Source of the DNA: Pollenia angustigena
Lineage: Eukaryota > Arthropoda > Insecta > Diptera > Polleniidae
Reading direction: 5' to 3'
Length of the DNA: 64,000 nt
Assembly: GCA_930367215.1 (NCBI GenBank)
Contig: OV884056.1
Coordinates: forward strand, 254,041,127 to 254,105,126
The position numbers and the translations under genes are program-made. How positions within the stretch are numbered: the first letter of the stretch is position 1; each line of letters begins with the position of its first letter. This document shows positions 12,342 to 63,522 of the stretch, in pieces. The notes under the pieces were generated by a model. It did no database searches and was not told the DNA's origin. It was given only the letters and a program-made list of their open reading frames with translations.

Positions 12342-12793
12342 AGAAAAATTCTTGACAAAAGTACGAAAAAACAGAAGTAAGGAAAAAACATGTAAAATCA
12401 ATTAAAATGGATTATCATTCAGGAAAGCAAATTTCGATCTACCAAATGTTAAAATACAATTTGGTTTAAGGATTGATGTTTGACTATTGACGACAGCAGT
12501 CGTCGATGGCTGCGAGTGTAAGACGGCAAATCCATCTGAGGAGATCGAGTGGTTGCGATCGAAACATGTCATGGTAACCTGCCGGCCAGGGTTCGAGCCC
12601 GAGCCACGTCAAGAATGAAAGATTATCAATAACAATTTTAATTAATTTTCATGTTGTAAAATTCCTTTCTTCATAAGAATAATTTAATGAAAATAAAATT
12701 TCATGAACTTAAGCCTAATTAAAAATATTAAAAATTTGGATTAAAAACCATAAATAGTTCAACAAAATAACCACAATACTAATTATTGTTAAA
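12342..12793 (+). repeat. tRNA-derived SINE, tandem copy 1
   Basis: A 452-bp unit repeated at 12902-13353 (offset 560) with three differences noticed by eye. Within it, about 12537-12610 resembles a class II (Ser/Leu-type) tRNA: ATCGAGTGGTT matches the A box and GGTTCGAGCCC (12590-12600) the RNA polymerase III B box, with flanking complementary bases. The remainder is an AT-rich tail. A third, divergent and truncated copy lies on the minus strand at 29398-29600. The tRNA-like part lacks a convincing anticodon arm, so it is not a working tRNA gene. Confidence 0.7.
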
Positions 12794-12901
12794 GCTAAGG
12801 CACGAGCTCTATGTGTACATTTGTCCTTCAAGTTGTGCTAAAAAAGGTCAACAAAAAAGAGAAAGACAAAATGAAAAAACAAAAAATGTAATTGGACTTC
12901 A

Positions 12902-13353
12902 AGAAAAATTCTTGACAAAAGTACGAAAAAACAGAAGTAAGGAAAAAACATGTAAAATCAATTAAAATGGATTATCATTCAGGAAAGCAAATTTCGATCT
13001 ACCAAATGTTAAAATACAATTTGGTTTAAGGATTGATGTTTGACTATTGACGTCAGCAGTCGTCGATGGCTGCGAGTGTAAGACGGCAAATCCATCTGAG
13101 GAGATCGAGTGGTTGCGATCGAAACATGTCATTGTAACCTGCCGGCCAGGGTTCGAGCCCGAGCCACGTCAAGAATGAAAGATTATCAATAACAATTTTA
13201 ATTAATTTTCATGTTGTAAAATTCCTTTCTTCATAAGAATAATTTAATGAAAATTAAATTTCATGAACTTAAGCCTAATTAAAAATATTAAAAATTTGGA
13301 TTAAAAACCATAAATAGTTCAACAAAATAACCACAATACTAATTATTGTTAAA
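12902..13353 (+). repeat. tRNA-derived SINE, tandem copy 2
   Basis: Near-identical to the unit at 12342-12793; seen differences are GACGTCAGC versus GACGACAGC, CATTGTAACC versus CATGGTAACC, and one A/T change in the tail. The B box GGTTCGAGCCC is at 13150-13160. A 108-bp non-homologous spacer separates the units. TTATTGTTAAACAG occurs both just before copy 1 and at the end of copy 2, which suggests a segmental duplication or repeated insertion at a tail. Confidence 0.7.
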
Positions 13354-20069: not shown

Positions 20070-20290
20070 AAAGGGGAATGTAATATTGTTGGTGTTTTGT
20101 CTAAGCTTTGATATCGTTTGCAAGTAAAACTTATCGTTTGTAATTCTCATTCGTTTTTTAGTTTTATTTGTATAACATCTTTAGCTTTTTCAAAGTCTTT
20201 GCAAAAATCAAAAATAAATATTTGGAATTAAGCACGTGTTATTAATAACAAATTTTGTATTCCCAAAGATTACTTTGATAATAACAAAAT
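20070..20290 (+). repeat. Degenerate copy of the hammerhead-repeat family
   Basis: Begins GGGGAATGTAATATTGTTGG and contains AAGCTTTGATATCGTTTGCAA and AGTTTTATTTGTATAACATC, then ends GAATTAAGCACG...TGTATTCCCAAAGATTACTTTG, all family landmarks. The central block that carries the ribozyme core in other copies is deleted. Confidence 0.6.
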
Positions 20291-21884: not shown

Positions 21885-22015
21885 TCGTGTAAAAGAAGAT
21901 CCCATCAACAATAAATTTCAGTTTATCAATAGTATGAAATGGGAATTTAGCACATTTAAACGTGACCTTGTTAATTAATTTTTTTAATCCCAAGAAAAAC
22001 TTTGATAACTAATAT
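21885..22015 (+). repeat. 3' fragment of the hammerhead-repeat family
   Basis: CCCATCAACAATAAATTTCA, then a GGGAATTTAGCAC block and AATCCCAAGAAAAACTTTGAT. This is the part downstream of the ribozyme core in fuller copies; the core itself is absent. Confidence 0.55.
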
Positions 22016-22130
22016 GCATGTGGCAGTGTAAATAAAACTGAACTGGCAAAATAAAATAAAGTAATTTAGGGTTGACAAAAAATCAACCAATTGTTGTCGG
22101 GACTGTAAGAAAAGATAAACTCACTGTTTA

Positions 22131-22766
22131 AGGCGCCCGTACACGACATGTATTTGTCATCTGACATGTCAAATTTTCAAGTCACATGTAATTGTTCATG
22201 TCTGTCAAAATTGCTGTTTTACATAAGGTTTATAATTTTCGGTCACAAACGTACATGTAATTTGCTTCTGACATTGTCTCTGGTTTTTTTTCGCATTGTT
22301 ATTGCAAAAACCAAAGTAGTTCTCGGTTTCAAAATAGCTTGCTGCCGCCACGAAAATATTTATTTGCGCCGTAAAATAATTTAGCCATCTTAACATTTTT
22401 TTCTTTTATTTTAAAGATACCAATTTAGAATTTTATAATGAAACGGTTTTTATGTTTATATTTACATAAATTCTATTCAATGGTAAGATGAGCATACATA
22501 TCTTGGTATTGTAAAATATTAACTTCAGCCGGCTAATGATTACGTCAATAGTTGACGCCGCTGCCAGTTTCTTCCCGGCATAGATTTCTGATGTCAGATG
22601 GTTTGTCAGAAGAAAATAGAGCACGCTCTAATTGAAATTTTGTCAGATGACTTTGCGTCTGACTTTTACAGAAGCAAAGTTAAAAAGGTAACACACGACA
22701 TGTATGTGTTTTGCAGTGGGAAATTTGACATGTCAGATGACAAAAACATGTCGTCTATACGCTCCT
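22131..22766. mobile_element. PIF/Harbinger-like MITE with TTA duplication
   Basis: Left end AGGCGCCCGTACACGACATG; right end, read inward, AGGAGCGTATAGACGACATG; both continue inward with TTTGTCATCTGACATGTCAAA-like sequence, giving about 45-bp inverted repeats. TTA sits on both sides (22128-22130 and 22767-22769). It interrupts a hammerhead-repeat copy, and the uninterrupted sequence CACTGTTTATTGTTGATG at about 29792 shows a single TTTA there. TTA duplication plus AGG-starting ends fit PIF/Harbinger. No transposase inside. Confidence 0.75.
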
Positions 22767-22884
22767 TTATTGTTGTTGTTTTTGTTTAAGCTTTGATATT
22801 GTTACAAGTAAAACTGGGGTTTATAATACTCATTCGCTTAACAGTTTTATTTGTATAATATCTTTAGTTTTCCTAAAATGTTTG

Positions 22885-22945
22885 GATGAAGTTTCCTGAC
22901 GATCTGGCCTAAGCAACCAGTGAAATGCGCATAGGAATAGCTTAT
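22885..22945 (+). ncRNA. Hammerhead ribozyme-like core (type I), copy A
   Basis: Core CTGACGA (22896-22902), stem II CTGG(22904-22907)/CCAG(22917-22920) with loop CCTAAGCAA, GAAA (22922-22925), then ATGCGCAT, whose inner bases allow a 3-bp stem III with a 2-base loop, and the predicted cleavage base A22933. Stem I pairs GTTTC upstream with GGAAT downstream. The stem II closing pair is U-U instead of the usual G-C. Known type I hammerheads with very short stem III occur in Penelope-like elements and retrozymes. The fold is inferred by hand. Confidence 0.6.
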
Positions 22946-23404
22946 CCCGTCAACAATAAACTTCAGTTTATCAATAGTATGAAATGGGAATTTAGCACAT
23001 TATGACGAAACCTTGTTATAAAACTTTTTTAGTTAAGCATAAAAAATAAACTAAAATAAAACATTAAAAATATTATATTAATAATCTCATTATTTGATAC
23101 GAATTTTAGCACTTTTTGTGTTTTGAAATTATTTTTCCTTAACCTTTCGTCATGAGCTAACATTGTTGAAAAAAGGGCGTAATTTGAAACACATAAAAGT
23201 TATATAATAAAATATAAATGAGCTTCGTCGATTCGACGAACAGTAACCATCCAGGGTTAAATTCTAAGTTCTCGTACGGCAGCGGTGCTAGTATGTCCAG
23301 AACCGAATATATGTCGCTTTAAAACCCTCTCTCTAAAATCGTTTGGATGAAACCTCATGTAGATATCAAAATATTGTCGGAACCATAGTATAATAAGTAC
23401 CAGG

Positions 23405-23645: not shown

Positions 23646-23792
23646 CATCCAATCAATTCAAAATATAAATCAATTTGGATGCAGTGCTATACAAACAGAG
23701 GCAATAAAACCATATGGCCTTATTTCTCAATGGAATGAGAAATGAAATCATATGACTTTATTGCCTACACCCAAGTTCAATATCACCATATT

Positions 23793-24414
23793 GGGGTGCT
23801 CTTTAACCATGGGAGGTAAGGCCATGATGGCATTATTGCTCAATTGAATGGGAGATAGATCCGTAATGGTCTTATTGCCCAATCATTGAGAGGTAAGGTC
23901 ATATGTAAAATTTTGCGAAGTGAGAGATATAGCAATATTTTTTCCCCAAATGAAAGGCAAAGCCATATTTTTCCAGAATATTGTTATGCATGGTGTTAAC
24001 ATTCTGTAAAAGGGAAAATCCTTAGTTATCATTGAAAAACATTTTTTTATTCTTGTGACGCACGCAGGAAATCTTTATTCAGCGAAGCCACCTGCCGCGT
24101 CCTCCTGGAGGAAAAAACCCCTAAACGCGGCCGCAGGCCTCCACGCAGAAAAAATTTAGTATGCGAAGCCAGATTTCAATACTTAACTTTAATAAAAAGG
24201 AAAATCATTACCTCTTAATTATAAAAATAAGAAAACTATTAATCAATGTAAAATGGGAAAATTCTTCGAAACTGAAATGATTACTAATGTGTCCTAAGAC
24301 CATAATGGCTTTGCCTCCCATTCGAATGCGAAAAAATAAATTTATCTCTCTTTTGAATGGGAGATAAAGCCATCATGGTCTTACTTCCCATGGTTGAAAA
24401 GCACCCCCCCCCCC
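23793..24414. mobile_element. MITE with long inverted ends (GGGGTGCT)
   Basis: The left end GGGGTGCTCTTTAACCATGG runs into GGCCATGATGGC; the right end is its imperfect complement, finishing in ATGGTTGAAAAGCACCCCC. Inverted repeats extend about 70 bp. CACCATA lies on both sides (23784-23790 and within 24413-24420), a likely 7-8-bp target duplication. A poly-C run at the right tip probably expanded by slippage. A truncated relative is at 15675-16060. Non-coding. Confidence 0.65.
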
Positions 24415-26421: not shown

Positions 26422-27094
26422 GCAACCGTTTATTCGATTTTATCAATTAAGTAAATATTTTTACCATAACAATACAATATTTATACCACCACCTATTGTG
26501 GGGAGGGTACTATGCGTTTTGCTGATGTCTGTAGCACCTTAAAATATTAGTCCTTAGCCCACCTTTACGTATACCAATTAACTCAGAATCACTTTCTGAG
26601 TCGAATTAACGATGTTTGTCCGGCTGGCTTGCTGTCCATGTAAACCTTGTGCGCAAAGTACAGGTCGCAATTTAGAGATCATTTGATAAAATTTGGTACA
26701 AAGGTTCTAATGTGGTGTAGAGTATCATAAAGTTGATCTGGACTCAAAAGGTTGGGTAAATGTTTTCGTGATTATGATGTACCTTCAAATTATTTAAAAC
26801 TTATAATTATTTGAAACTAATGAGTGATTCCTTTGAGATGAGCAATATCGACATCGAATTTTTCGATGATTTAATTTTTTAATATTAATTTATTTTAATA
26901 TTAATTTACGTTTATTCTTATTTAACAAATTGAGCTTAACTCACAATTTCATCATAAACAACTTTAAATGAATTATATCTGTTTTGTTATTAAATTTTAA
27001 TGTGTTTTTATTAAAAAAACTCTTTTATCCATTTTTTAGCCCATTTTTAGCCCATTTTTAGCCATTTTTTTCCGTAAATTTAGCCATTTTTAAT

Positions 27095-27325
27095 ACGATC
27101 TTCGTATGACGTGCTAAATTCCCAGTTTTTCATATTTGATAAATACACTGAAATTTATTGTTGAGGGAAAGCAAGCCTCTATGCGCATTTCGCCGGTTGC
27201 TTACACCAGCTCATCAGGAAACCTTTTCCAAAGATTTTAGAAAAGCCAAAAATATTAAACAAATAAAACCTTAAGCGAATAAGAGTTATAAACACTCTAA
27301 GTCTTACCTGTAACAATAAGACAAG
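27095..27325 (-). repeat. Hammerhead-repeat family, inverted copy
   Basis: Reverse-orientation copy: GTGCTAAATTCCCAGTTTTT, AAATTTATTGTTGAGGGA, the core block, AAAACCTTAAGCGAATAAGA and TGTAACAATAAGAC. It lies within the hAT element and ends just before its right terminus. Confidence 0.65.
27170..27228 (-). ncRNA. Hammerhead ribozyme-like core (type I), copy B, best match
   Basis: Read on the minus strand: CTGATGA (27217-27211), stem II GCTGG (27210-27206), loop TGTAAGCAA, CCGGC (27196-27192), GAAA (27191-27188), ATGCGCAT and cleavage base A at 27180. The stem II closing pair is the canonical G-C, and the U-G inside keeps the stem. Stem I can form seven continuous pairs (GGTTTC side with GAGGCTT, some G-U). 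All invariant hammerhead residues (CUGANGA, GAAA, UH) are present. Confidence 0.7.
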
Positions 27326-29601: not shown

Positions 29602-30094
29602 GTAATTTCAATTTTTGGGAATACTTTTTGATAATAAACGGGCAAGTGCACGGCCTAAAAAAAACACTTAATGGACAACATCTTTTGTAAGTTTTTGCTG
29701 TTTTTATTTTGTTTTTCTTAACCTTCTTACAACTACAATTAATGTTGGAAGAATTTTAACTAATTGTAGTGGGGAATGTAAGATGAGATAAAACCACTGT
29801 TTATTGTTGATGTGTTTTGTTTAAACTTTGATATTATTACAAGTATAACTGTTGCTATAAGTCTTATACGTTTAACAGTTTTATTTGGTTTAATATCTTT
29901 AGTTTTTCTAATATCTTTATAGATGAAGTTTCCTGATGATCTGGCCTAAGCAACCAGTAAAATGCGCATAGGAATAGCTTATTCCATCGACAATAAATTT
30001 CAAGTGTTTTTATCAAGGATAAAAACTGGAAATTAAGCACGAATAACAAAATCTTTTGAAATTAAAATTTTGTATTCCCAAAAATTGAAATTAC
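29602..30094 (+). repeat. Hammerhead-repeat family, full-length-looking copy
   Basis: Bounded by a perfect 23-bp inverted repeat: 29602-29624 is the reverse complement of 30072-30094 (inner end TTGGGAATAC / GTATTCCCAA). Order: AAACGGGCAAGTGCACGGCC; GTAGTGGGGAATGTAAGATG; TTTGATATTATTACAAGTAT; core; CGACAATAAATTTCAAGTG; AAACTGGAAATTAAGCACGA. It directly interrupts the SINE at 29398-29601. Non-coding. Confidence 0.7.
29922..29985 (+). ncRNA. Hammerhead ribozyme-like core, inactivated copy C
   Basis: CTGATGA (29933-29939), stem II CTGG/CCAG (29941-29944/29954-29957), ATGCGCATA as in copy A. The GAAA is AAAA (29959-29962): the invariant G12, needed for general-base catalysis in hammerheads, is lost, so this copy should not cleave. 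Confidence 0.6.
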
Positions 30095-31256: not shown

Positions 31257-31947
31257 TCCCATGATTATTTTTAACAAATATTCTGACAGTATTGTTTTTA
31301 TACCCTTCACCACAGCACACTGGGAAATTCCGGCCAAAAATTTTTTTTTTTTTTTTTTTAATTTTAATAAAATTTTGATGACAGATTATAGCGAACACTT
31401 CAAAACATACAACTCTCTTCTTATTTTGGCTCTTAGATAACTATTTTACTGTTAAAAGTGGAGTAAGTAGATAATTTTTTTCTTATAAATTTTAGGTTTT
31501 TAAAGTAGATATTTGTGCTTTGAAATAAAAGTAAGCTATGATTTTTTCTTTTAAGTATTCTTTGAAAATAAGCACTTTAACTTTAAACCGTATTAGTAAT
31601 TAATCATTCCATGTGATAATTGTTTTTGTGCGCGTTATTTTTTTGGATAAGTGAAGTGATTGTGAGTTACTTTAAAAATAAATAAAATCTAAAGTAAGCC
31701 AAATTTAAAGAGACCATAACAAAAAAGGTGGGGCTAGGGGAGGTTAAGTGATAATTAGATCTAGTACTGTTAAGTATCCAAAGTAAGTACTATAAATTTC
31801 AGCTGCCACCACCTTCCACCCTAGTAGCCAGATCGTTTTAAGTAATTTCCCATATTTTAATTTCAAAAGATTTTGTTATTCGTGCTTAATTCCCAGTTTT
31901 TATTCTTGATAAAAACACTTGAAATTTATTGTTGATGGGATAAGCTA

Positions 31948-31998
31948 TTCCTATGCATTTCACTGGTTGCTTAGGCCAGATCATCAGGAAACTTCATC
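31948..31998 (-). ncRNA. Hammerhead ribozyme-like core, copy D
   Basis: Minus-strand CTGATGA (31987-31981), stem II CTGG/CCAG, GAAA (31961-31958), stem III reduced to ATGCAT, then A (31952). With no loop bases, stem III could form only between two molecules, so any activity would need a dimer. Confidence 0.55.
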
Positions 31999-32525
31999 CA
32001 TAAAGATTTTAGACAAACTAAAGATATTAAACCAAATAAAACTGTTAAACGTATAAGACTTGTAGCAACAGTTTTACTTGTAACAATATCAAAGCTTGAA
32101 CAAAATACATCAACAATAAAAAAGTGGGTTTATCTCATCTTACACTCCCCATGTTTATCAAGAATAAAAACTGGGAATTAAGCACGAATAACAAAATCTT
32201 TTGAAATTAAAATTTTGTATTCCCAAAAATTGAAATTACTTTTTGATAATAAACAGGCAAGTGCACGGCCTAAAAAAACGCTTAATTGACAACATCTTTT
32301 GTAAGTTGTTGTTTGTTTTTCTTAACCTACTTACAACTACAATTAATGTTGAGAGAATTTCAACTAATTGTAGTGGGGAGTGTAAGATGAGATAAACCCA
32401 CTTTTTTATTGTTGATGTATTTTGTTCAAGCTTTGATATTGTTACAAGTAAAACTGTTGCTATAAGTCTTATACGTTTAACAGTTTTATTTGGTTTAATA
32501 TCTTTAGTTTGTCTAAAATCTTTAT

Positions 32526-32588
32526 GGATGAAGTTTCCTGATGATCTGGCCTAAGCAACCAGTGAAATGCATAGGAATAGCTTATCCC
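32526..32588 (+). ncRNA. Hammerhead ribozyme-like core, copy E
   Basis: CTGATGA (32538-32544), stem II CTGG/CCAG (32546-32549/32559-32562), GAAA (32564-32567), ATGCAT, A32573, and GGAATAGCTT for stem I. Same reduced stem III as copy D. Confidence 0.55.
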
Positions 32589-32719
32589 ATCAACAATCAA
32601 TTTCAAGTGTTTTTATCAAGAATAAAAACTGGGAATTAAGCACGAATAACAAAGTCTTTTGAAAATAAAATTTTGTATTCCCAAAAATTGAAATTACTTT
32701 TTGATAATTTCCCATATTT

Positions 32720-38654: not shown

Positions 38655-38950
38655 TGATGGTGTTTATTTTTGTATTTTGGTTTAAGCATTGATATTGTTC
38701 CAAACACGACTTTTTGAGTGTTTGCAATTCTCATTCACTCTGCATTTCTTTTTTTTTTGCTAATAACTTTGACTTTTCTAAAATTTTTGGGAAGAATGTT
38801 TTATGATGATCAACCAGTGAAATGTGCACAGGAACTGGCTTATCCTCGAACAATTAAGTTAAGTATATTTATCAAGAACAACAAACTAAATCATATTAAT
38901 TGAATGGAATTAAAATTATGTATTCCAAAAATTACTTTGATAATCACATC
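38655..38950 (+). repeat. Decayed hammerhead-repeat copy
   Basis: Landmarks TTTAAGCATTGATATTGTTC, TGATGATCAACCAGTGAAATG and TATGTATTCCAAAAATTACT. The core has lost the 5' half of stem II, leaving TGATGA next to CCAGTGAAATGTGCACA, so it cannot fold as a hammerhead. Confidence 0.55.
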
Positions 38951-40077: not shown

Positions 40078-43000
40078 GTCTGGGGGGTGATTGTACTAGG
40101 TCAGTATAGTAAAACCCTCAAAGGGTTTGGCGTTCGTATGTGTCAGTTCTTTTTTATGACATTTTAAATTTTTTCCTTATCTTGATGTTTTTTCGCTTAG
40201 TTGTAACATTTTGGCAAAAACGTAGTTTAACATTACGCGAGAACCACTTGTCCGATTTTGCTAAAACAAACTCAAAAAAATTTAGAATTACAATTTCTTT
40301 AATCCGTTCATATAACGTTTTTCTTTATAATCCACAGTTTTGCCGGTAAAAATAAATTTGTGGAGAAAAAAAAATATTTTTTTTTTAAATTCATAAAAAA
40401 TCCAAAACGGAAAAAAGGATCAAGTGTTATTAATTTCATGTAAAGTCACATAACCTATAAACAAAATGCGACATAGATCATAGAAATCGATTAACGCGTT
40501 CTGCTTTTATTTGCAATTAAGTGAAGGTATCCCATTTTGACAAGAATATTGATATTTGTTTTTATTCAAAAAAGTGTTATTTATCGCCTTTTTTTATAAA
40601 TTTTCCCCAATAACTTCAGACTTCTGGCCATAAACTACTGAAAAAATTAAGTAAACATTTTTATAATTTTTTATTTTTATTTTAATTATTTATTTTTATT
40701 TATTTTAAGAAATATTGCCTAGACTTTTTTGATGGTGGTTGTTCGGGACTAGTGGCATCGCATTCATCGCTATCATCAGTTTCTGAACCACACATAATGT
40801 CAATGTGTGACTCCACTATTGGCCCTTCTGCATCTCCTGAAAATTCTTTATCATCAAGATCATCCTTGTCTTGCCACACAAGCTTACTCCACCAGCAAAT
40901 TTCCGCAATTATTGCACTCGGCGACTTTTTGCCTCTATATCTGTAAGTTTTTGTTTTATTAAAATGAGTTTGAAAAAATAAAAAATCAGTATTACCTCAT
41001 TTCAAATGGCATAGCAACTTGATGATAGAGTTCACCTTGTTCATCAGATTCGGTAGCCAATTGTTTGCTGAAGTAGTCCAGATGATGATGTAAATAATGG
41101 ATTTTCAAGGACATGTGGACACCAATTTCCGAGAATGCTCTTAACATCCTTGCGACAGAAACATCGTAGTTGTTAGAACGATGCTTTCCCAACAAGCCTT
41201 CTATTACTTCTTTGATTGCCTGCCATGCATTCAATTCAGCGTCAATCAAAATATTGTTGAATGCGTCACTTTTAATCAGCTTTCGTATATCTGGACCATT
41301 TAGTACGCCTGATTGGAAAAAATTAATTTGTAAAGATGGAAAATCATGGGAAATGAATGTGATATTATAACTTACCTTCTTTAATTTTACTTTCGCTGAG
41401 TCTCGGGTAAATTAGTTTCAAACACAAGAAAACTTCATCTCTTTTGGCGACAGTTTTGATAAAATTCTTAACAATTCCAAGTTTAATATGCAGTGGAGGC
41501 AGCAATATCTTCTCCTTCGGCACTAGAGGCTCACGAATAATATTGGCCGTTTGTAACCTGCTGTGCTCTCTGAGTTTCCATCCGTGGCATGCATATTGGT
41601 CACCGGAAAATCGTGTGTCCCAATCGCACATATATTTTATATAGCCGCTTTGAAGACCGCAAAGCATTGCTACAACTTTTAAATCGCAGCATATGCGCCA
41701 CATATGTTTGGCGTAGTTAACCATTTTTAAAATATTTTCCAGTGCATCATATGTTTCTTTCGTTTCTGTACTATAAGCGATTGGAACTGAAGGTTTTTTA
41801 TTGGTCTTATGCAGTAAAACCGCCTTCAAGCTGAGTTTTGAACTGTCAATAAATAATCTCCAGTCATCTGCTTCATATTTTATTTCCATTGCGTCCATCA
41901 ATTTTCCTACATCCGGGCAATATGCAGAAGTTTTTTCATCATTTACAAGGAATAAACTTTGGAGTGTTGCCTGACGACTTCGATAAGCTGTGACTTTCAC
42001 ACCGGGTGCCAACAAATTGTTTGATTTCAAAATGGAAGCCAGCTCTTCCGATTTATGCTGTGTTAATTCCAACTTGGCAACAATTGCATCAAGCTTATTT
42101 TGATTTATTAAAATTGGCTCATTGGATACTGATTGCTCATATGGGGGATCATCACGTGCATGATATGTCGGAGCAGTCGTAGAAGAGAAAATATCTGGGC
42201 TAGAAGCTTTTGGCACAGGAATGTGGTCCGAATGAGGCAATGGTGTTGCGGCACTTGCAACACCAACGTAATTATACGATTTTCTTATCCTTTTTGCGGA
42301 TCCTTTATTCGCACATGCATAGCAATTCAATGGATTGTGACCTTCGCCAGGATTAGTCCAAGTCATTGGGATACCGAATGGCATACTTTCACGTCTTCTA
42401 TTTTTCCAATCCATTAGACGGTTGTAGCAGCTTTTACACACTATATTTGGTACCCAATTTTCGTTCACTATAACATTTTGGTTGAAGTACATCTCGTATG
42501 TTTGAACAAAATCAATACTGAAATTTCCCCTTTTTTTATGTGTTGGGACATATTGACCACAGCAGTAGCAAAAGCTATTTATATCTGGCTTGCACAGTTC
42601 CATATTCTGTTCTCTTTTGTTCACTTTTAAAAAACTGGAGAAAAATCACTTTTACTGTTCGCGTTCGTCGGCACTTGTTGAATGACAAAAATCGATAAAT
42701 GAACACCTATAAATACTACGTATTTTTCAATATTTTACTGACAGATACGTTCCAAAACATGGAATTTCTGTAAAAAAATCATACAGGTAGCCAACGGAAA
42801 ACCCCAAATAATTAAAAAAGTGCACTTTCCTTTTTTCCTTTCAATTGTCCACGCACATTTATTACTTCTTATTACTTTGCTACAGCAATCATAAAAATCA
42901 AATAACCTTTTGTTTATTACTTTTTTTTTAATTCTAAGAATCATAAAAAAAGTCATAAATGTTTTTGCAAAGAATTTTGTGCATATCTCGAGCAAATTTT

Positions 43001-52687: not shown

Positions 52688-52860
52688 TAGGACCTGTTTT
52701 ATTGAAATAATACTACATTGTAGTAACTTACACTAAACATGTTCATTGATGTTATTATTTTAGTTGGCCAGTTTTAAAATTTTAAGTTATTTTCCTATTT
52801 TTAAGCTTGTTAGGCCAGGAGCTTCAATGTAAATAAAACATCAATTTTATTACAGTTTTT

Positions 52861-52904
52861 CCCAACGTTTCGTAGAGTATTTTTCTACTTCTTCAGGGGG
52901 TGTC
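52861..52904 (-). ncRNA. Partial hammerhead-like motif in the Penelope terminal repeat
   Basis: Minus strand: CTGAAGA, then AGTAG-loop-CTAC and GAAACGTTGGG. CUGANGA, a stem II and GAAA appear in hammerhead order, but an extra A precedes stem II and I find no CAACGUH partner for stem III upstream. Penelope-like elements are reported to carry hammerheads; this one may be half of a split motif or decayed. Confidence 0.4.
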
Positions 52905-53092
52905 TATTTAAATATGTGTAAAAACGTACATTATAATACAGTATTTTTTTAAACCATGTATATAACTTACAAATTTTTTTGATTATATTACATTTTTTAA
53001 ATATTTTATTTGTAAAAACAAAAAACAATTAACAATAATAATTTTCAACCTCGTTCTAGTATCACAGTGAAAAACTTTTTTAAATTTGTTTA

Positions 53093-53510
53093 TCAATTTA
53101 AAACAACCATGTAATTAATGTTGATGTTGTCTGTGTCTTCTTTCAGATTCATCGTCTTATTTATTTTCTGTTGGATTCGTAAACTTTCAATCGTATATCT
53201 CTTTTTTTCAACATTCTCTCTATCCAATATTTTGACGTTTTCAAAATCAGCAGTATGACCATGGTGTAACATATGTTGTGCTAGTGCTGTTGTTTCTTTG
53301 TTTTTTGTTATGTCTGCTTTGTGTTCTCCCATTCTCGTCTGTAAACTTCGTTTTGTTGTACCAATGTTTATGAGGTCGCATGGTTCGTCATTATTACCTT
53401 TACATTGTATTTCGTATACAACGTTACTCATTTGTTGTTTGGCGATGGGTGTTTTTGTTCTTGTAAAAATTGTGTTGATCGTTCTATTTGGTTTATAAGC
53501 AAAACAAGTG
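53093..53510 (-). pseudogene. Penelope GIY-YIG endonuclease domain
   Basis: Minus strand. SNVVYEIQCKG, then CDLINIGTTKRSLQTRMGEH and KADI, TTALAQHMLHHGH, ILDRE..KKRYTIESLRIQ. This corresponds to the GIY-YIG nuclease fused to Penelope RT, which nicks target DNA before reverse transcription. The usual YIG is NIG here. The catalytic Arg in TKRSLQTR and the later Glu in ESLRI are present. The domain itself has no internal stop and extends upstream of its first Met in frame, so it was the C-terminal part of a longer protein now disabled by upstream breaks. Confidence 0.8.
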
Positions 53511-53639
53511 TTTTTTGTCTTTATTGTGTTTCTTATGTTCGCATTATCAACAAGGTGTGGAACATATGGTACACTGTAAAAAACTTTTGGTGGTTCTTCC
53601 GTAATTAAGTTAGTTCCGTTATTTTGTTTTAATTGTGTT

Positions 53640-53990
53640 ATTGTACTTTTAATCAGACATTTGGTTAAGTTATTGGGAAAACAGTTATTTTTTTAAATTT
53701 TACGGATAATTTCAATATTTTTGTCGTGAAATACTTCATCGCTTATATTTAGAACTCTCTTAATAAAACTTTTTGCTGTTTTTTATTATTTGATTCATTG
53801 GTTGAGTAGTGTAATAATTCATTATCCTGCCTGATGATGTCTCTTTTGTAAACCAGTCAAATATTATTGTATCTTCCGCCCTATGTAATTTTGTGTCCAG
53901 AAACGCTATTCTCCCTTCATTTTCCATCTCCATTGTAAATTTAATTTTAGAGTGATAACACAGCCCGACAAAATTAAAAAATATTTTTGC
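53640..53990 (-). pseudogene. Penelope RT thumb region, frameshifted
   Basis: Minus strand: MENEGRIAFLDTKLHR, FDWFTKETSSGRIMNYY, TQPMNQI, then after a one-base shift FIKRVLNISDEVFHDKN and a stop. The pattern FLD....R......W..K...SGR..NYYS.HP of Penelope RT is clear. Continuity with the palm (54515-54961) is broken by the foldback insertion. Confidence 0.75.
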
Positions 53991-53995
53991 TTCTT

Positions 53996-54533
53996 TGAAT
54001 TTATCAACTGATTCTAGTTAATTTGCGCTGAATTCAAAACTGTAATCAGTTTGTCTCTATCTCTATGATATGACTTTTTATACCCTCCACTTATGACCTA
54101 CAATTACACCAATTACCCAAATTTTTTTTCCAAATTTTTTTTTTTTTATCAAAATTTTTTATTTACTGTTATAGTTATTGCCAAAAAAAAAAAATCCCAA
54201 ATTTTTTTAAGTATTTAGAAAATAAAACTTTTTTATAGGAATTTAAAAAAATAAAAAGAAGAAAAACTGTTTCATACAGATTTATTAAAATAAAAAAATA
54301 AAATCCTTAAAAAAATTTGGGAGTTTTTTTTTTGGCAATAACTATAACAGTAAATAAAAAATTTTGATAAAAAAAATTTTGGAAAAAAAATTTGGGTAAT
54401 TGGTGTAATTGGAGGTCATAAGTGGAGGGTATATAAAGTTATATCATGAAAACTAGAGCTGATAGAGACAAACTGATTACAGTTTTGAATTCAGCGCACC
54501 AAAATTAACTAGAATCAGTTGATAAATTCAAGG
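53996..54533. mobile_element. Foldback insertion inside the Penelope RT
   Basis: Palindrome of about 538 bp. TTTATCAACTGATTCTAGTT, GAATTCAAAACTGTAATCAG, TTTGTCTCTATC and CCTCCACTTATGACCT on the left mirror the right arm. A GCTTC-type sequence borders both outer edges. The centre (54100-54380) is A/T-run rich. Non-coding. Confidence 0.7.
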
Positions 54534-54961
54534 AAGCAAATTGAGTGTTGGCCTGTGTAATCATTCAATGTTTTTAGAATACTGTCCTTGTCTTGGGATG
54601 AAATTATTGCCAAGAAATCGTCCACATACTTTGTGATGTATTTGATATTAATGTTGATCTTGTTAAGTTTTGCCAGTGCGTCGCCAAGTAAGCTATCAAG
54701 AAGTATATCTGCTATTGTCGGTGATAGAGGGTTACCCATAGGCATTCCAAACACTTGCTTATAAAATCTATTGCCGTATATAAAATAATTATTGTCATTT
54801 AGGCAAAATCTCGGGATATGCAGAAATTTTGCACGAGGGATTTTTGTAAGCTGTTCGATTTTGTTCCAGTTTTTCATTATGTTCTTTATTGCCAATTGGA
54901 CAGGTATATTTGTGAATAACGCGACGACATCATTGATGTTTGACTGGTCAATTGGTGTCAA
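54515..54961 (-). pseudogene. Penelope-like reverse transcriptase, palm part
   Basis: Minus strand: NDVVALFTNIPVQLAIKNI, FCLNDNNYFIYGNRFYKQV, FGMPMGNPLSPTIADILL, KYVDDFLAII. DV.SLFTNIP, the Q..G..MG.PLSP.(I)A box and the catalytic Y/F-VDD motif identify a Penelope-clade RT, which is related to telomerase. The frame is open from the upstream edge of similarity to the foldback junction, where it ends in foreign sequence. The N-terminal fingers are absent. Confidence 0.85.
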
Positions 54962-54964
54962 TTG

Positions 54965-56100
54965 ACCCCCTCCTATGACAACCCCATGTAAAAGTAATAG
55001 GTTTCATTCATATTAAAGTGTTAGAACTAGAACCGGTTTATACCACCACTGACCTATCACGGGACTACTTTGGTGTCAGTTCGCTTCCCTCTAGGGTGGT
55101 AGTTAATAAAAACTCAAATTAGTGAAGTTGGCTGTTAAGATAAGTAATTTTTGGCTTGGACGAGAACATGGGAAATTTTATAAGTTCAGGCCATATTTTC
55201 TGGTGATAAAGTAAATAATTCATTCCGTGTAGATTAAAGCTTATATAACGGCTGCAACTACTACACGGTTACATATATTGTACTACACGGTTACATATAT
55301 TGTAATAAAACTCTGTTTTCATTTCCGATCACATTTTATATTGTAGATTAAATTTTCTGATGAGCAGATATTGAACTGAATTTGGCAAAATAATTGTAAT
55401 TTGCGATTCTTTAATTTAAAATTTTAAAGGAATAGATAGCTGAATTTTTTTAATAAAAACCTACTTGATTTTGACTTGTGCTCATGTTTTTTTCTTGCAA
55501 AATTAAGCCAATTAGACTTGTGTTAGCTGTGGCGTTTTGCGCATTTTCTATTGGCAAACGACATCTCTGCTGTGCAAAAGGTTTAAAACTGATTGATTTG
55601 TTACCTTTTTTCAAATCATTCTTCCCAACAGTATTGCTAGCTTTAATTAATATTAAACGATAATCTGTTTCCAATAATTTAGTCCACCAATTCTGTTCTT
55701 ACATATATTTAAGTGTTTTTCAAAAACTACAATTTTGATTCTTAATAGAATTAAAGCAATGTCATTATTTTTTTATTAATTTTTGTAATGCTTTTATTTT
55801 TCTTATAGGAACTATAGTTCTTTTGTGCTTAAAACTGTTCTGCGAGACATATTTGTTTAATTTTTTAATATAAAACACTTTTAACAAAACTCTGATGTAG
55901 TTTTGACTACTGATCACGACAAAATAAATGAAATTGATAGTGCTTATTTGAAAATGTGAGTTCTAATGGTTTTAATAACGATGCTGAGTGGAGGACAAAC
56001 AAATTTATTGAAATCTGTTATGTTGTCAAAAAAACAAAAAGAAAAGAAAAATGTTTTATCATTGTTTTTTAAATAGAAAGAAAAACTCCAACAATAAGGA
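54965..56100. other. No gene recognised
   Basis: AT-rich. 55255-55300 has a short direct repeat (ACTACACGGTTACATATATTGT twice, in part). Overlapping opposite frames at 55450-55674 have no motif. Confidence 0.35.
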
Positions 56101-59668: not shown

Positions 59669-59983
59669 GTGTTTCAACAGAAAATATGCAACAATTGCCT
59701 CTCTTCAGGCCACACGAAAGCTAAATGCTCCAGCAAGAATACTTGCTTCATTTGTAAATCCGAACATCATACACTACTTCATTTACAAAAATCACGCGAT
59801 TCATCCTTATCTTTGCAAAATGATGAATCCTTAAAAGAATCGAAAGATTACTCACATCAAAAAAAGGATAACACACCTAGGGAAAAAAATATTGAAATCA
59901 GGGATAGTCTACATCAAAAAATTGCCAAGTTGAAGCAAATTTCTCGTCTAATAACGACTTCATTTTACTACGCACAGCTTTAG
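59669..59983 (+). pseudogene. BEL/Pao gag C-terminus with zinc knuckles
   Basis: ICNNCLSSGHTKAKC followed by CFICKSEHHTLLHL: two cysteine knuckles, C-x2-C-x4-H-x4-C and C-x2-C-x4-HHTLLH, the nucleocapsid-like signature of BEL/Pao gag that binds genomic RNA. The first codon of the open stretch is GTG, so the true protein began upstream in sequence no longer present; the junction with the mariner remnant is at about 59640. A Lys/Asp-rich linker follows, and the frame is lost near 59930, before the protease. Confidence 0.8.
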
Positions 59984-60528
59984 TACAAATTGAATACCGT
60001 GGCGAATTATTTACGGTTAGAGCGCTAATAGACCCAGGCTCTCAAAGAACATTTATGTCCGAAAGAATTAGAACTTTACTAAAACTACCGTACCAAAAAT
60101 CTCTAGTTGAAATTGTTGGAATTGGTGGTCAGGTTCAATCTGCAAATAAAGAATGCAAAGTTACGTTATTTGCTAAACGCTTAAACTTAAAATTTAATGT
60201 AAATGCCATTATACTTCCAAAACTAACCAAGCGAATTCCGTCAAGTTCTTTTGAAGTTTCTAATGCCTCAAATCTTGTAAATATTGATTTAGCAGATCCT
60301 AACTTCAATCAATCTTCTCCAATAGACCTAATTCTTGGTAATGACTCCGAGCATTTCATTAATTTAGAAGGAATAAAGAAGAATATATGTGGGCAAGCGT
60401 CAGCGTATAATTCAATATTCGGATGGGTTTTAAGCGGTCCTACTCAAACAAATACAATACAGGCGTTCACTACCACTGTCACTCCGTCCGAAAACACTCA
60501 TCTCACTGAAATCTTAAGAAAGTTTTGA
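59940..60528 (+). pseudogene. BEL/Pao aspartic protease region
   Basis: The frame opens upstream of the first ATG (60055). RALIDPGSQRTF holds the catalytic Asp of a retroviral-type aspartic protease (D-P/S-G-S in this clade), preceded by a TALVQIEYRG strand and followed by LILGNDSEHF and SIFGWVLSG, typical of the Pao protease-RT spacer. It cuts the Gag-Pol polyprotein. A single TGA at 60526-60528 interrupts the frame, which continues unchanged on the other side. Confidence 0.8.
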
Positions 60529-63522
60529 GAACAAGAAGAGCTACCTTTAATGCCGATAGTATCAGAAGAAGACCAGTATTGCGAAGACTTTTATAAGAAA
60601 ACTACAACGAGAGAAGCAAGTGGAAGATATATGGTAAGACTTCCCATCCGAAAAGAATTCCCTGAATCAATATTTCTCGGTCCAACCCGTATTTTGGCTC
60701 TAGTTCAACATTCACGTATAAACCAATCACTTTCTAAATCTCCAGATCAGCAAAAAGAATATAACTCCGTTCTTGAAGAATATTTAACACTCGACCATAT
60801 AGAACCGACTTCATATCGCGAAATAGTTTCAGATGGTAAATATTTTTCCTTTTACTTACCACATCACGCTGTAGTTCGCCCAGAACATAAGACTACTAAA
60901 GTCAGAGTAGTATTTAACGCCTCCCGTAATTCCAAATCAGGGGTTTCTCTAAACGATATTCTGTATACTGACCCAACTCTACAATCCGATTTAATGTCAG
61001 TTATCCTAAACTGGAGAATTTATCAATATGTCTTCAGTGGCGACATACAAAAAATGTATCGCCAAATTTTAGTTCATCCAGATGATAGACAATTTCAACG
61101 CATTATTTTTCAGAAAGATTTAAATGGCCCTTTTAAAGATTACATGCTCAAAACCGTAACTTTCGGAATCAATTGTGCCCCATTTTTAGCAATTCGAACT
61201 CTGCTTCAACTGGCAGAAGACTCTATAGAAAAATACCCAAAAGCTGCTGAAATATTGCGCAAAGAGACTTATGTAGATGATATACTGTCTGGTGGTCACA
61301 CAAATGAAGATGCAATAGAATCTCAGTCCGAAATTGTAAAAACTCTAAACTCAGCTGGATTTATATCAAAAAAAATTACTGCAAACGACAATCGGTTGCT
61401 AACCCATATCTCAACTGAGGACCTTTACGACTCAAATTTTCTTCGGTTTCACGATACAAGCTCAACAAAGACACTAGGAATAAAGAGGAATGCTCTAACT
61501 GACACCTTTAGGTATTCTGTATCCCCAATAAATCCCGCAGAAAACATAACCAAACGTAAAATATTGTCAGGAATAGCGTCAATTTTCGATCGCGCAGGTT
61601 GGATTACACCAATAATCATAAAAGCTAAGATTTTGATGCAGCAATTGTGGTTGGAAGGTATACAATGGGATGACTACGTAAGCTCTGAAATTTTAGACAA
61701 ATGGAATAAACTCATTAAAGATCTGTCGCATATTGATGAAATACACATTCCCAGATGGCTACAATATAAACCCACGGACATTATACAAATCCACGGATTC
61801 TCAGATGCTTCAAAAGGAGCATATTGCGCAGCAGTCTACTTACGATGTCAACGAGCATCTCAGGTTGCAACAGCCAACTTAATTGCAGCTAAGAGTAAAG
61901 TCGCTCCCATACAACCTATTTGCTTACCAAGATTAGAACTTAACGGCGCTGTTTTATTATCAAAATTAGTCAAATATGTAACAGAATCCCTAAATTTGTC
62001 TCAATGTGAAATTTTTCTGTGGACTGACTCTTCAATTGTCGTCGGATGGTTATCTAAACCGGCATGGACTTGGGAAACGTATGTCGCTTACAGAGCAGCA
62101 CTAATTCGCAGCTCCCTACCCAATGCAACTTGGCACCATGTTCGCACACATGATAACCCGGCTGATCTTGGTACCCGTGGCTGCAAGCCTCAGGAACTCA
62201 AAAATAACATCTTATGGTGGCAGGGCCCTTCCTGGCTCACAAATCCGCAAACCGAATGGCCTAAAGAAACCCAATTAAAAATCCCAGACAGCAAAAAGAA
62301 AATTCATTGCCTTCAGTCTGCCATTGAGAAAACGGATATTTTAAACATATTCTCATCATACCACAAAGTACTCAGAGTCTTATCTTATGTTTTTCGTTTC
62401 TACCACAATAGTATCCGAAAATTTAGATTTCAAATTCATTATACGAGTTTAAATCTTACGCAAAAGGAGGTAAACTTTGTTAAATTTCGGTTAATTAACT
62501 TAGCCCAAAACTCAAATTATAAGGCAGAAATTAAAGACATCTCAAACTCTTTGCTAGTCTCTAATAAAAGCCCATTAAAACCCCTTAACCCAATTTTAGA
62601 CTCGCAAAATATTTTACGAGTCAATGGCCGCCTATCAAATGCGTCACTCACTTATAATGAACGGTATCCAAAAAAAGGATATGCTTGTGTTTTTGTGTGC
62701 TTCAGCATAAAAGCCATTCACTTGGAAGTATGTTCAGATTTGTCTACAGCTGCTTTTCGAGCAGCATTTTCTCGCTTCATCGGGAGGCGGGGACTTCCTT
62801 TCAGGATTTATTCTGATAATGGTCGAAACTTTGTTGGAGCGAGTCGACAATTAAAAAGAGAATTTGCCTTGTTTATAAAGTCTGCTTCTGAAGACATTGC
62901 TAAAAAATATATAACACACGGACTCGAATGGATATTCATTCCACCACATGCACCCCACATGGGCGGTTTATGGGAGGCCGCAGTTAAAAGTTTTAAATTT
63001 CATTTAAAAAGAGTTGCAGGGTCATATAAATTTACGTTTGAAGAATTTGCCACAATATTAACCCAAATTGAAGGAATTTTAAATTCCCGACCTATTTCTG
63101 CTATGTCAGAGGATCCTGCTGACTTCTCAGCACTAACTCCCGGGCATTTCCTAAGAAGCGCCCCTATAGTGAGCTTTCCTGAATAAAAAGACCAAAAAAT
63201 AGGAGTGTTAAACAGATGGGAACGACTTTAAGCTATTCATCATCAATTAGCCATTAGATGGAAGGAGGACTACTTAAAATCCCTGCACAAAAGATATAAA
63301 TGGAAAAATGTTACTACAAACTTGAAAACCGGAGACCTCGTAGTAGTCATGGATGACTTATTACCGCCCTCTGATTGGCGCTTAGGCAGAATAGAAAAAA
63401 CATATCCGTGTATAGACGACAATGTCCGAATTGCGGACGTTAAAACAGTTACCGGTATGATAAAGAGACCCATCGTAAAGCTCTGCTATTTACCAATTCT
63501 TGACAATCACGAGTCCACTTAA
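60529..63522 (+). pseudogene. BEL/Pao Pol: RT, RNase H, integrase remnant, C-terminal domain
   Basis: Residues counted from the ATG at 60550. RT: VVRPEHKTTKVRVVFNAS (about 109-126), SGDIQKMYRQI (about 163-173), ETYVDDILSGG (about 239-249). A Pao-type RNase H-like region follows: HGFSDASKGAYCAAVYL (about 415-431), RLELNGAVLL, WTDSS (about 493-497). Integrase: the usual HHCC zinc module and the first catalytic Asp are missing; the text jumps at about 62670 into KGYACVFVCFSIKAIHLEV, with the second Asp in IYSDNGRNF and the Glu in GGLWEAAVK present. After two stops, the C-terminal domain GDLVVVMDDLLPPSDWRLGR (63337-63396) ends at 63522. The integrase could not catalyse insertion. Confidence 0.85.

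Follow-up and report, generated by a model that had tools for sequence, protein, structure and literature searches.

The dispersed repeats in the analysed stretch of the Pollenia angustigena genome (64,000 nucleotides of contig OV884056.1, hereafter the window) are very probably metazoan non-LTR retrozymes, whose transcripts would be cleaved by a hammerhead likely acting as a dimer, circularised and copied into DNA by a helper reverse transcriptase that is probably of Penelope type. We assign these repeats, called family A here, to the retrozyme type because of their type I topology, invariant core, compensated differences in stem I and tandem units, and because they have target-site duplications and some 25,000 cores across the genome. 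The motif, its paired changes, the tandem units, the duplications, recent identical copies and, in the sampled pairs, a head-to-head geometry are directly seen in the DNA. A previous sequence-only reading had proposed a non-autonomous, ribozyme-bearing retroelement related to retrozymes or Penelope; the retrozyme type holds, and the repeat is not itself a Penelope-like element. Metazoan non-LTR retrozymes are described by Cervera and de la Pena 2020 (PMC7229834) and in a review (PMC7761336). As the agent that copies them into DNA, Penelope-like elements are named there as no more than strong candidates (PMC7229834), and a genome holding two retrozyme families, recent identical copies and abundant Penelope-like reverse transcriptase bears on that question.

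The five cores reported for the window were located at 22896 (+), 27217 (−), 29933 (+), 31987 (−) and 32538 (+), and all claimed parts were found, i.e. CTGA(C/T)GA, stem II, GAAA, a palindromic stem III, ATA and the partner of stem I, as was the AAAA replacing GAAA in the 29.9-kb copy. The stem III palindrome is ATGCGCAT (8 nt) in the usual copies, while those at 31.97 and 32.5 kb have ATGCAT instead. An open stem I and a stem III closed as a tiny palindrome give the type I topology; together with the invariant core and descriptor matches beyond chance, this bears out the type I reading. Our first descriptor demanded CTGANGA, stem II, GAA/AAA, a stem III of short length, UH as well as stem I. 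It retrieved exactly the five reported cores plus 12536 (+), which belongs to a second family (family B), compared to a mean of 0.03 and a maximum of 1 match when the window was simulated 100 times with an order-1 Markov model. The second descriptor, which requires GAAA and permits minimal forms, matched at 12536 (+), 22896 (+), 27217 (−), 31987 (−), 32538 (+) and 52896 (−), with 0 matches in 60 simulations; 29933 (+) escapes it through AAAA in place of GAAA, and 13096 (+) through a mismatch in stem I. The invariant core is thus kept in four of the five reported copies. The exception at 29.9 kb carries an A in place of G12, the G of GAAA, which is invariant in hammerheads, and this hammerhead is therefore probably dead. 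The base of stem II is G-C in the 27.2-kb copy only and U.U in the other four. Two old copies at 20.1 and 38.7 kb as well as two more kinds of hammerhead, at 12.5/13.1 kb and 52.9 kb, had not been reported before. All features are collected in Table 1.

Table 1. Retrozyme and Penelope-related features of the window (positions within the 64,000-nucleotide stretch).
Feature	Position	Strand	Remarks
Retrozyme family B, tandem pair, 560-nt period	12345..13353	+	CTGA at 12536 and 13096
Old family A fragment without hammerhead	20084..20201	+	
Retrozyme family A, first part of insertion of more than one unit	21899..22130	+	core +100 round unit to −75
MITE-like element inside retrozyme	22131..22765		47-bp inverted ends (87%), TTA target duplication by eye
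Retrozyme family A, second part, carries hammerhead	22766..23018	+	
Type I hammerhead, family A, U.U at stem II base	22884..22951	+	predicted cleavage after A22933
Retrozyme family A copy, 487-nt subfamily, truncated	27086..27318	−	
Type I hammerhead, subfamily with G-C at stem II base	27163..27229	−	pattern with 1,412 genomic matches
Retrozyme family A copy	29699..30084	+	short inverted piece seems adjoining near 29.6 kb (by eye)
Hammerhead, GAAA changed to AAAA, probably inactive	29921..29988	+	
Left copy of 14-bp target-site duplication	31844..31857		
Head-to-head insertion	31858..32705		minus arm ~31858-32151; plus arm ~32154-32705, more than one unit
Hammerhead of minus arm	31934..31999	−	6-nt palindrome as stem III
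Hammerhead of plus arm	32526..32591	+	6-nt palindrome as stem III
Right copy of 14-bp target-site duplication	32706..32719		
Old decayed family A copy	38661..38864	+	broken hammerhead at 38790-38847; 26.8 bits, covariance model R1
Minimal Penelope-type hammerhead	52850..52905	−	CTGA at 52896; downstream of Penelope-like ORF pieces
Penelope-like C-terminal piece	53093..53692	−	no Pfam match
Penelope-like reverse transcriptase piece	54515..55003	−	RVT_1, 30.3 bits, cut-off 29.6

While five cores are present, five separate copies are not, as those at 31.97 and 32.5 kb are the two arms of a single head-to-head insertion, flanked by the 14-bp target-site duplication AATTTCCCATATTT. Both arms have 15 non-consensus letters in common, most of them typical of a subfamily, and differ privately at only 2 and 4 sites, a likeness that would be expected if one RNA, or like RNAs, templated both. 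The 22.9-kb copy is the second part of a copy longer than one unit, interrupted by a 635-bp MITE-like element which we take to be Harbinger-like. The repeat length had been given as roughly 500 bp; the repeat is real and its actual unit measures 446-487 nt. Non-LTR retrozymes are expected to be non-coding and to lack LTR, PBS and PPT; no ORF of at least 150 aa was found between 20 and 33 kb in the window, and a tblastn search with the Penelope pieces of the window gave no reverse transcriptase match in 28 retrozyme loci (L001-L028).

In 16 family A sequences picked for variety (alignment A2), 90.3% of the cells pair, versus 39-56% in slid versions of the alignment. Two stem I pairs (4-61 and 7-59) change on both sides, one from U-A to A-U and one from A-U to G-C, and both changes come through a single sequence, the 27.2-kb copy. 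Alone they are weak evidence, the two-sided count being reached in 22 of 500 shuffles, and they gain weight because the letters are fixed in the G-C subfamily: GGAAAAGGTTTC is present in 24 of the 26 stretches read, with L133 differing upstream and L135 having one change. Further differences between the subfamilies are the U.U or G-C at the base of stem II and one-sided changes that preserve pairing. Alignment A1 holds 50 of 51 hammerhead stretches, omitting L001, which is the window copy itself; the partial hammerhead in L012 lies outside these 51.

The sequence-only reading had named covariance scores at background as an outcome speaking against a hammerhead, and family A does score at background. 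None of the Rfam hammerhead families matched family A at its gathering score, nor did any match appear at E values up to 10 for 22-33.5 kb or up to 5 for 101-base slices. We give this failure less weight because family B, with a covarying stem II, is also below cut-off, its 12.5-kb motif reaching 15.3 bits with RF00163 (Hammerhead_1) at a cut-off of 34. Family B is the clean case of stem II covariation: with both strands of stem II left free in the search pattern, the first 100 places listed contain GATTG/CAATC 53 times, GATCG/CGATC 43 times, GATCA/TGATC once and others 3 times, amounting to 497 of 500 Watson-Crick pairs, one G-U pair and two mismatches. The background scores are what a chance motif in an ordinary repeat would give, an explanation that hardly deserves credence in view of the simulations, the two subfamilies with compensated stem I changes and the almost perfect pairing at unconstrained positions in family B. 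Family A shows that even so large a family can be missed by the Rfam hammerhead models.

Predicted folding adds to how the retrozyme hammerheads may work. As a single strand, and to this extent against the proposed model, the hammerhead as drawn lies far above the minimum free energy fold, with −0.9 versus −13.5 kcal/mol for the U.U form, −8.6 versus −16.2 kcal/mol for the G-C form and +2.9 versus −14.9 kcal/mol for family B. Cofolding of two strands through AUGCGCAU yields a dimeric hammerhead of −35.3 (U.U) and −44.7 kcal/mol (G-C), the G-C dimer leaving A17 and the core letters free of pairing, in line with expectation, and the U.U dimer being drawn with A17 paired. From both results, we predict that cutting acts mainly as dimers in multimeric RNA. 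A very short palindromic stem III favouring dimer action is likewise described for the hammerhead repeats of newt and axolotl, which differ from family A in host, unit length and sequence (PMC7229834). The axolotl ribozyme HHR_Amex2 resembles family A in its U.U at the foot of helix II, described as weaker there, and in a two-pair stem III with a tetraloop (PMC7229834). U.U, G.U and G-C are natural variants at one pair that would be useful for activity assays.

Counting of genomic copies, as the sequence-only reading had suggested, gave 12,751 + 12,527 = 25,278 exact matches to the family A core pattern with free stem II letters in the 1.37 Gb host genome (31 contigs), with 0 and 0 for the reversed-pattern control; viral contigs had 0 matches in a scan with the core. 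The G-C subfamily pattern accounts for 702 + 710 = 1,412 matches (control 0). Among the first 100 places listed, a non-random sample from the start of contig C1, the stem II base pair is U.U in 86, G-C in 6, G.U in 5, U.C in 2 and A.C in 1, and the U.U form is therefore the amplified one there, which speaks against the proposed model insofar as this state is described as weaker in the axolotl (PMC7229834). Apart from the query itself, at least nine places show 100% identity over 116 nt among the 41 matches listed, for which 40 of 1,200 candidates were scored, indicating recent spread. At least two of them (L066 and L074) have a common downstream flank and hence the identical copies are not all separate insertions. 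A conservation profile along the unit was set aside as it is biased by the query.

Tandem arrangement is frequent: same-strand neighbours up to 1 kb apart in the first 100 places are spaced by 469-475 nt in 32 of 37 cases and by 487-488 nt in two, while individual loci show 450 nt (L006), 446 nt (L012) and, in L125, five hammerheads at 487-nt spacing whose repeat is 100% identical along 1,782 bases. Units within one insertion have non-consensus letters in common in five of seven tandem cases, some of these being frequent variants, which fits a circular template, with a tandem parent as alternative. Tandem arrays would also suit satellite DNA with a hammerhead-like sequence, spread by DNA-level recombination, for which pDo500 of Dolichopoda cave crickets offers an insect precedent: it has a hammerhead-like structure, is about 500 bp by its name and is described as satellite DNA (PMC2808323). 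We nevertheless judge such an origin very improbable, as family A copies are dispersed over six contigs and show target-site duplications, truncation at the 5' end, 3' ends at recurring sites and head-to-head pairs of one direction only.

Many family A copies are truncated at the 5' end, and their 3' ends recur near ...TTTGATAA, ...CTTGATAA and ...GTCAATA (by eye). Flank identity of at least 10 nt (10-14 nt) was found in 8 of 42 copies versus 9 of 1,718 mismatched flank pairs; the other 34 copies have none at this length. The 5' ends of 39 copies include one starting at about core position 91-93 and five at 72-80, and an excess at the predicted cut, i.e. a cleavage footprint, was not found among them; genomic ends therefore do not support cleaved linear RNA as the template.

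Close opposite-strand neighbours show a single orientation in all pairs sampled. Hammerheads of family A up to 1 kb apart are minus-then-plus in 8 of 8 cases and those of family B up to 1.1 kb apart in 11 of 11 (first 100 places each), and in the loci L019, L023, L024, L025, L036, L038, L068 and L086, all eight pairs that abut on opposite strands are head-to-head. By eye, the same minus-plus order is seen for three opposite-strand neighbours of Penelope reverse transcriptase matches within 5 kb and for two of Penelope-type hammerheads within 1 kb. Head-to-head inverted copies are the most frequent arrangement of rotifer Penelope elements, which also form partial tandems with 8-10-bp target-site duplications and for which self-priming on the antisense template was put forward as explanation (PMC3846280). 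For the retrozymes, we infer that the arms come from symmetric priming on both target strands, self-priming being the alternative. The partial text of PMC7229834 describes no head-to-head arrays for metazoan retrozymes, and no report of head-to-head retrozymes was found in the limited set of literature searched.

From insertion anatomy alone, we consider the helper to be, with fair probability, the reverse transcriptase of a Penelope-like element. A point against it is that no sequence common to retrozyme and Penelope 3' ends was found by eye in the three families compared. LINEs also produce target-site duplications and 5' inversions, so that a LINE enzyme could have copied a retrozyme-like element, with 5' inversions made by twin priming. 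In a LINE 5' inversion, the inverted part is the upstream part of the same copy. LINEs and Penelope-like elements are both named as candidates (PMC7229834), and we regard the LINE route as unlikely here, as in several insertions the two arms overlap and each begins at a 3' site of the element itself, like the Penelope cases of PMC3846280. As a tentative model that may well prove wrong, we propose that a Penelope reverse transcriptase copies retrozyme RNA circles in rolling-circle fashion, primed independently at the same RNA sites from both cut target strands, whereby two multimeric arms with outward ends meet head-to-head. If true, the one-way geometry in 19 of 19 listed pairs from two unrelated families would be the genomic signature of a Penelope-retrozyme partnership that has long been suspected. 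The head-to-head geometry is directly testable.

Taken stepwise, a multimeric transcript of tandem units would be cut at each type I hammerhead, in the 22.9-kb copy after A22933, probably best when two units pair via the self-complementary stem III AUGCGCAU. The 446-487-nt monomers would then probably form circles. A helper, most likely a Penelope-like reverse transcriptase, would copy circular or multimeric RNA from few recurring internal sites, working from either side of a staggered cut in the target. The resulting insertions would be tandem, 5'-truncated and head-to-head, with duplications of 10-14 bp. Internal initiation of reverse transcription has been shown for a Penelope element. Its hammerhead is dispensable for insertion in vitro and RNA ends at the cut site were not seen, two findings that weigh against the scheme proposed here (PMC11167929).

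Penelope-like sequence is present in the window itself, where 52850-55003 (−) is a broken Penelope-like element with a minimal hammerhead 3' of its coding pieces. Its C-terminal piece we take to be GIY-YIG from its position, and the reverse transcriptase piece had no match among solved structures. Penelope-like elements and their minimal hammerheads were reportedly described by Cervera and de la Pena in 2014 and Lunse in 2017. Penelope reverse transcriptase matches are abundant in the genome (150 scored of 6,412 candidates), several of them in tandem, and the minimal Penelope-type hammerhead pattern has 420 genomic matches (control 0) with stem II pairs such as GTCAA/TTGAC, GTAG/CTAC and GTCGG/CCGAC (by eye). 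Other Penelope families (L061, L063) carry CTTGATAA or CTTGAAAA in place of the minimal hammerhead core, followed by a stem and CGAAACG; their core is possibly changed or dead.

Such Penelope-like pieces with their own hammerheads, in the same window and genome, raise the question whether the repeats are merely pieces of Penelope-like elements (solo pLTRs) and their hammerhead a Penelope hammerhead. Penelope-like elements indeed resemble family A in their hammerhead association and in their tandem and head-to-head inverted copies (PMC11167929, PMC3846280), and the insertion anatomy is similar, with target-site duplications of 8-10 bp versus 10-14 bp in family A (PMC3846280). The family A units, however, are 446-487-nt tandem repeats in which no coding sequence, reverse transcriptase or endonuclease was found; the unit has only a weak match in 20 Penelope reverse transcriptase loci (best E 0.002), and the Penelope hammerheads of this genome are minimal and different in sequence, the stem I of family A being longer and its stem III a genuine palindrome. 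A chimeric Penelope-retrozyme insertion considered for L063 was rejected: at L063/L065, the sole adjacency found, a Penelope tandem has inserted into a retrozyme, because the missing retrozyme part lies beyond the tandem. Judged on the 20 Penelope reverse transcriptase loci and a reading of only four other Penelope loci, the solo pLTR origin appears highly implausible.

Family B, the second retrozyme family, has a core pattern with 24,189 genomic matches and a spacing of mostly 560-569 nt. Its hammerhead has GUC at the predicted cut and the palindrome ACATGT, the one at 13096 carrying one stem I mismatch, and is followed by GGTTCGAGCCC, which presumably resembles a pol III B box; ARAGORN found no tRNA gene in family B. 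One array (G000, C5:140825598-140832924) consists of six full and one partial unit in minus orientation facing a plus arm of one partial and six full units, about 98% identical to the window family B unit. Fixed 3' ends are not claimed for this family, as the flanks continue into unit sequence, and a target duplication was not found. Both families together bring one genome to about 49,000 hammerhead core matches.

Family A has the type I hammerhead, the short tandem units and the multicopy nature in common with metazoan retrozymes, as well as target duplications, described there as >4 bp and here 10-14 nt in 8 of 42 copies (PMC7229834). Unit spacings of 446-487 nt in family A, slightly above the published range of 150-450 bp, and of mostly 560-569 nt in family B set them apart, and the retrozymes of this genome are known from DNA alone, unlike those of PMC7229834. 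Retrozymes were reported in insects "among others", with no detail in the partial text of that paper. The hammerheads reported from house fly and fruit flies among Diptera are type III versus type I here (PMC7936874).

Further features of the window include inverted repeats at 23690-24390 that score below the Rfam cut-offs as several unrelated microRNA precursors, probably representing a foldback repeat. At 59908-63186 (+) there are retrotransposon-like ORFs of 206 and 885 aa, presumably BEL/Pao-like, the 206-aa ORF scoring just under the cut-off as an aspartyl protease. A 426-aa ORF at 41365-42645 (−) without a Pfam match has 1,413 relatives; of the best 120 listed, four are named, and these belong to beetles and gall midges.
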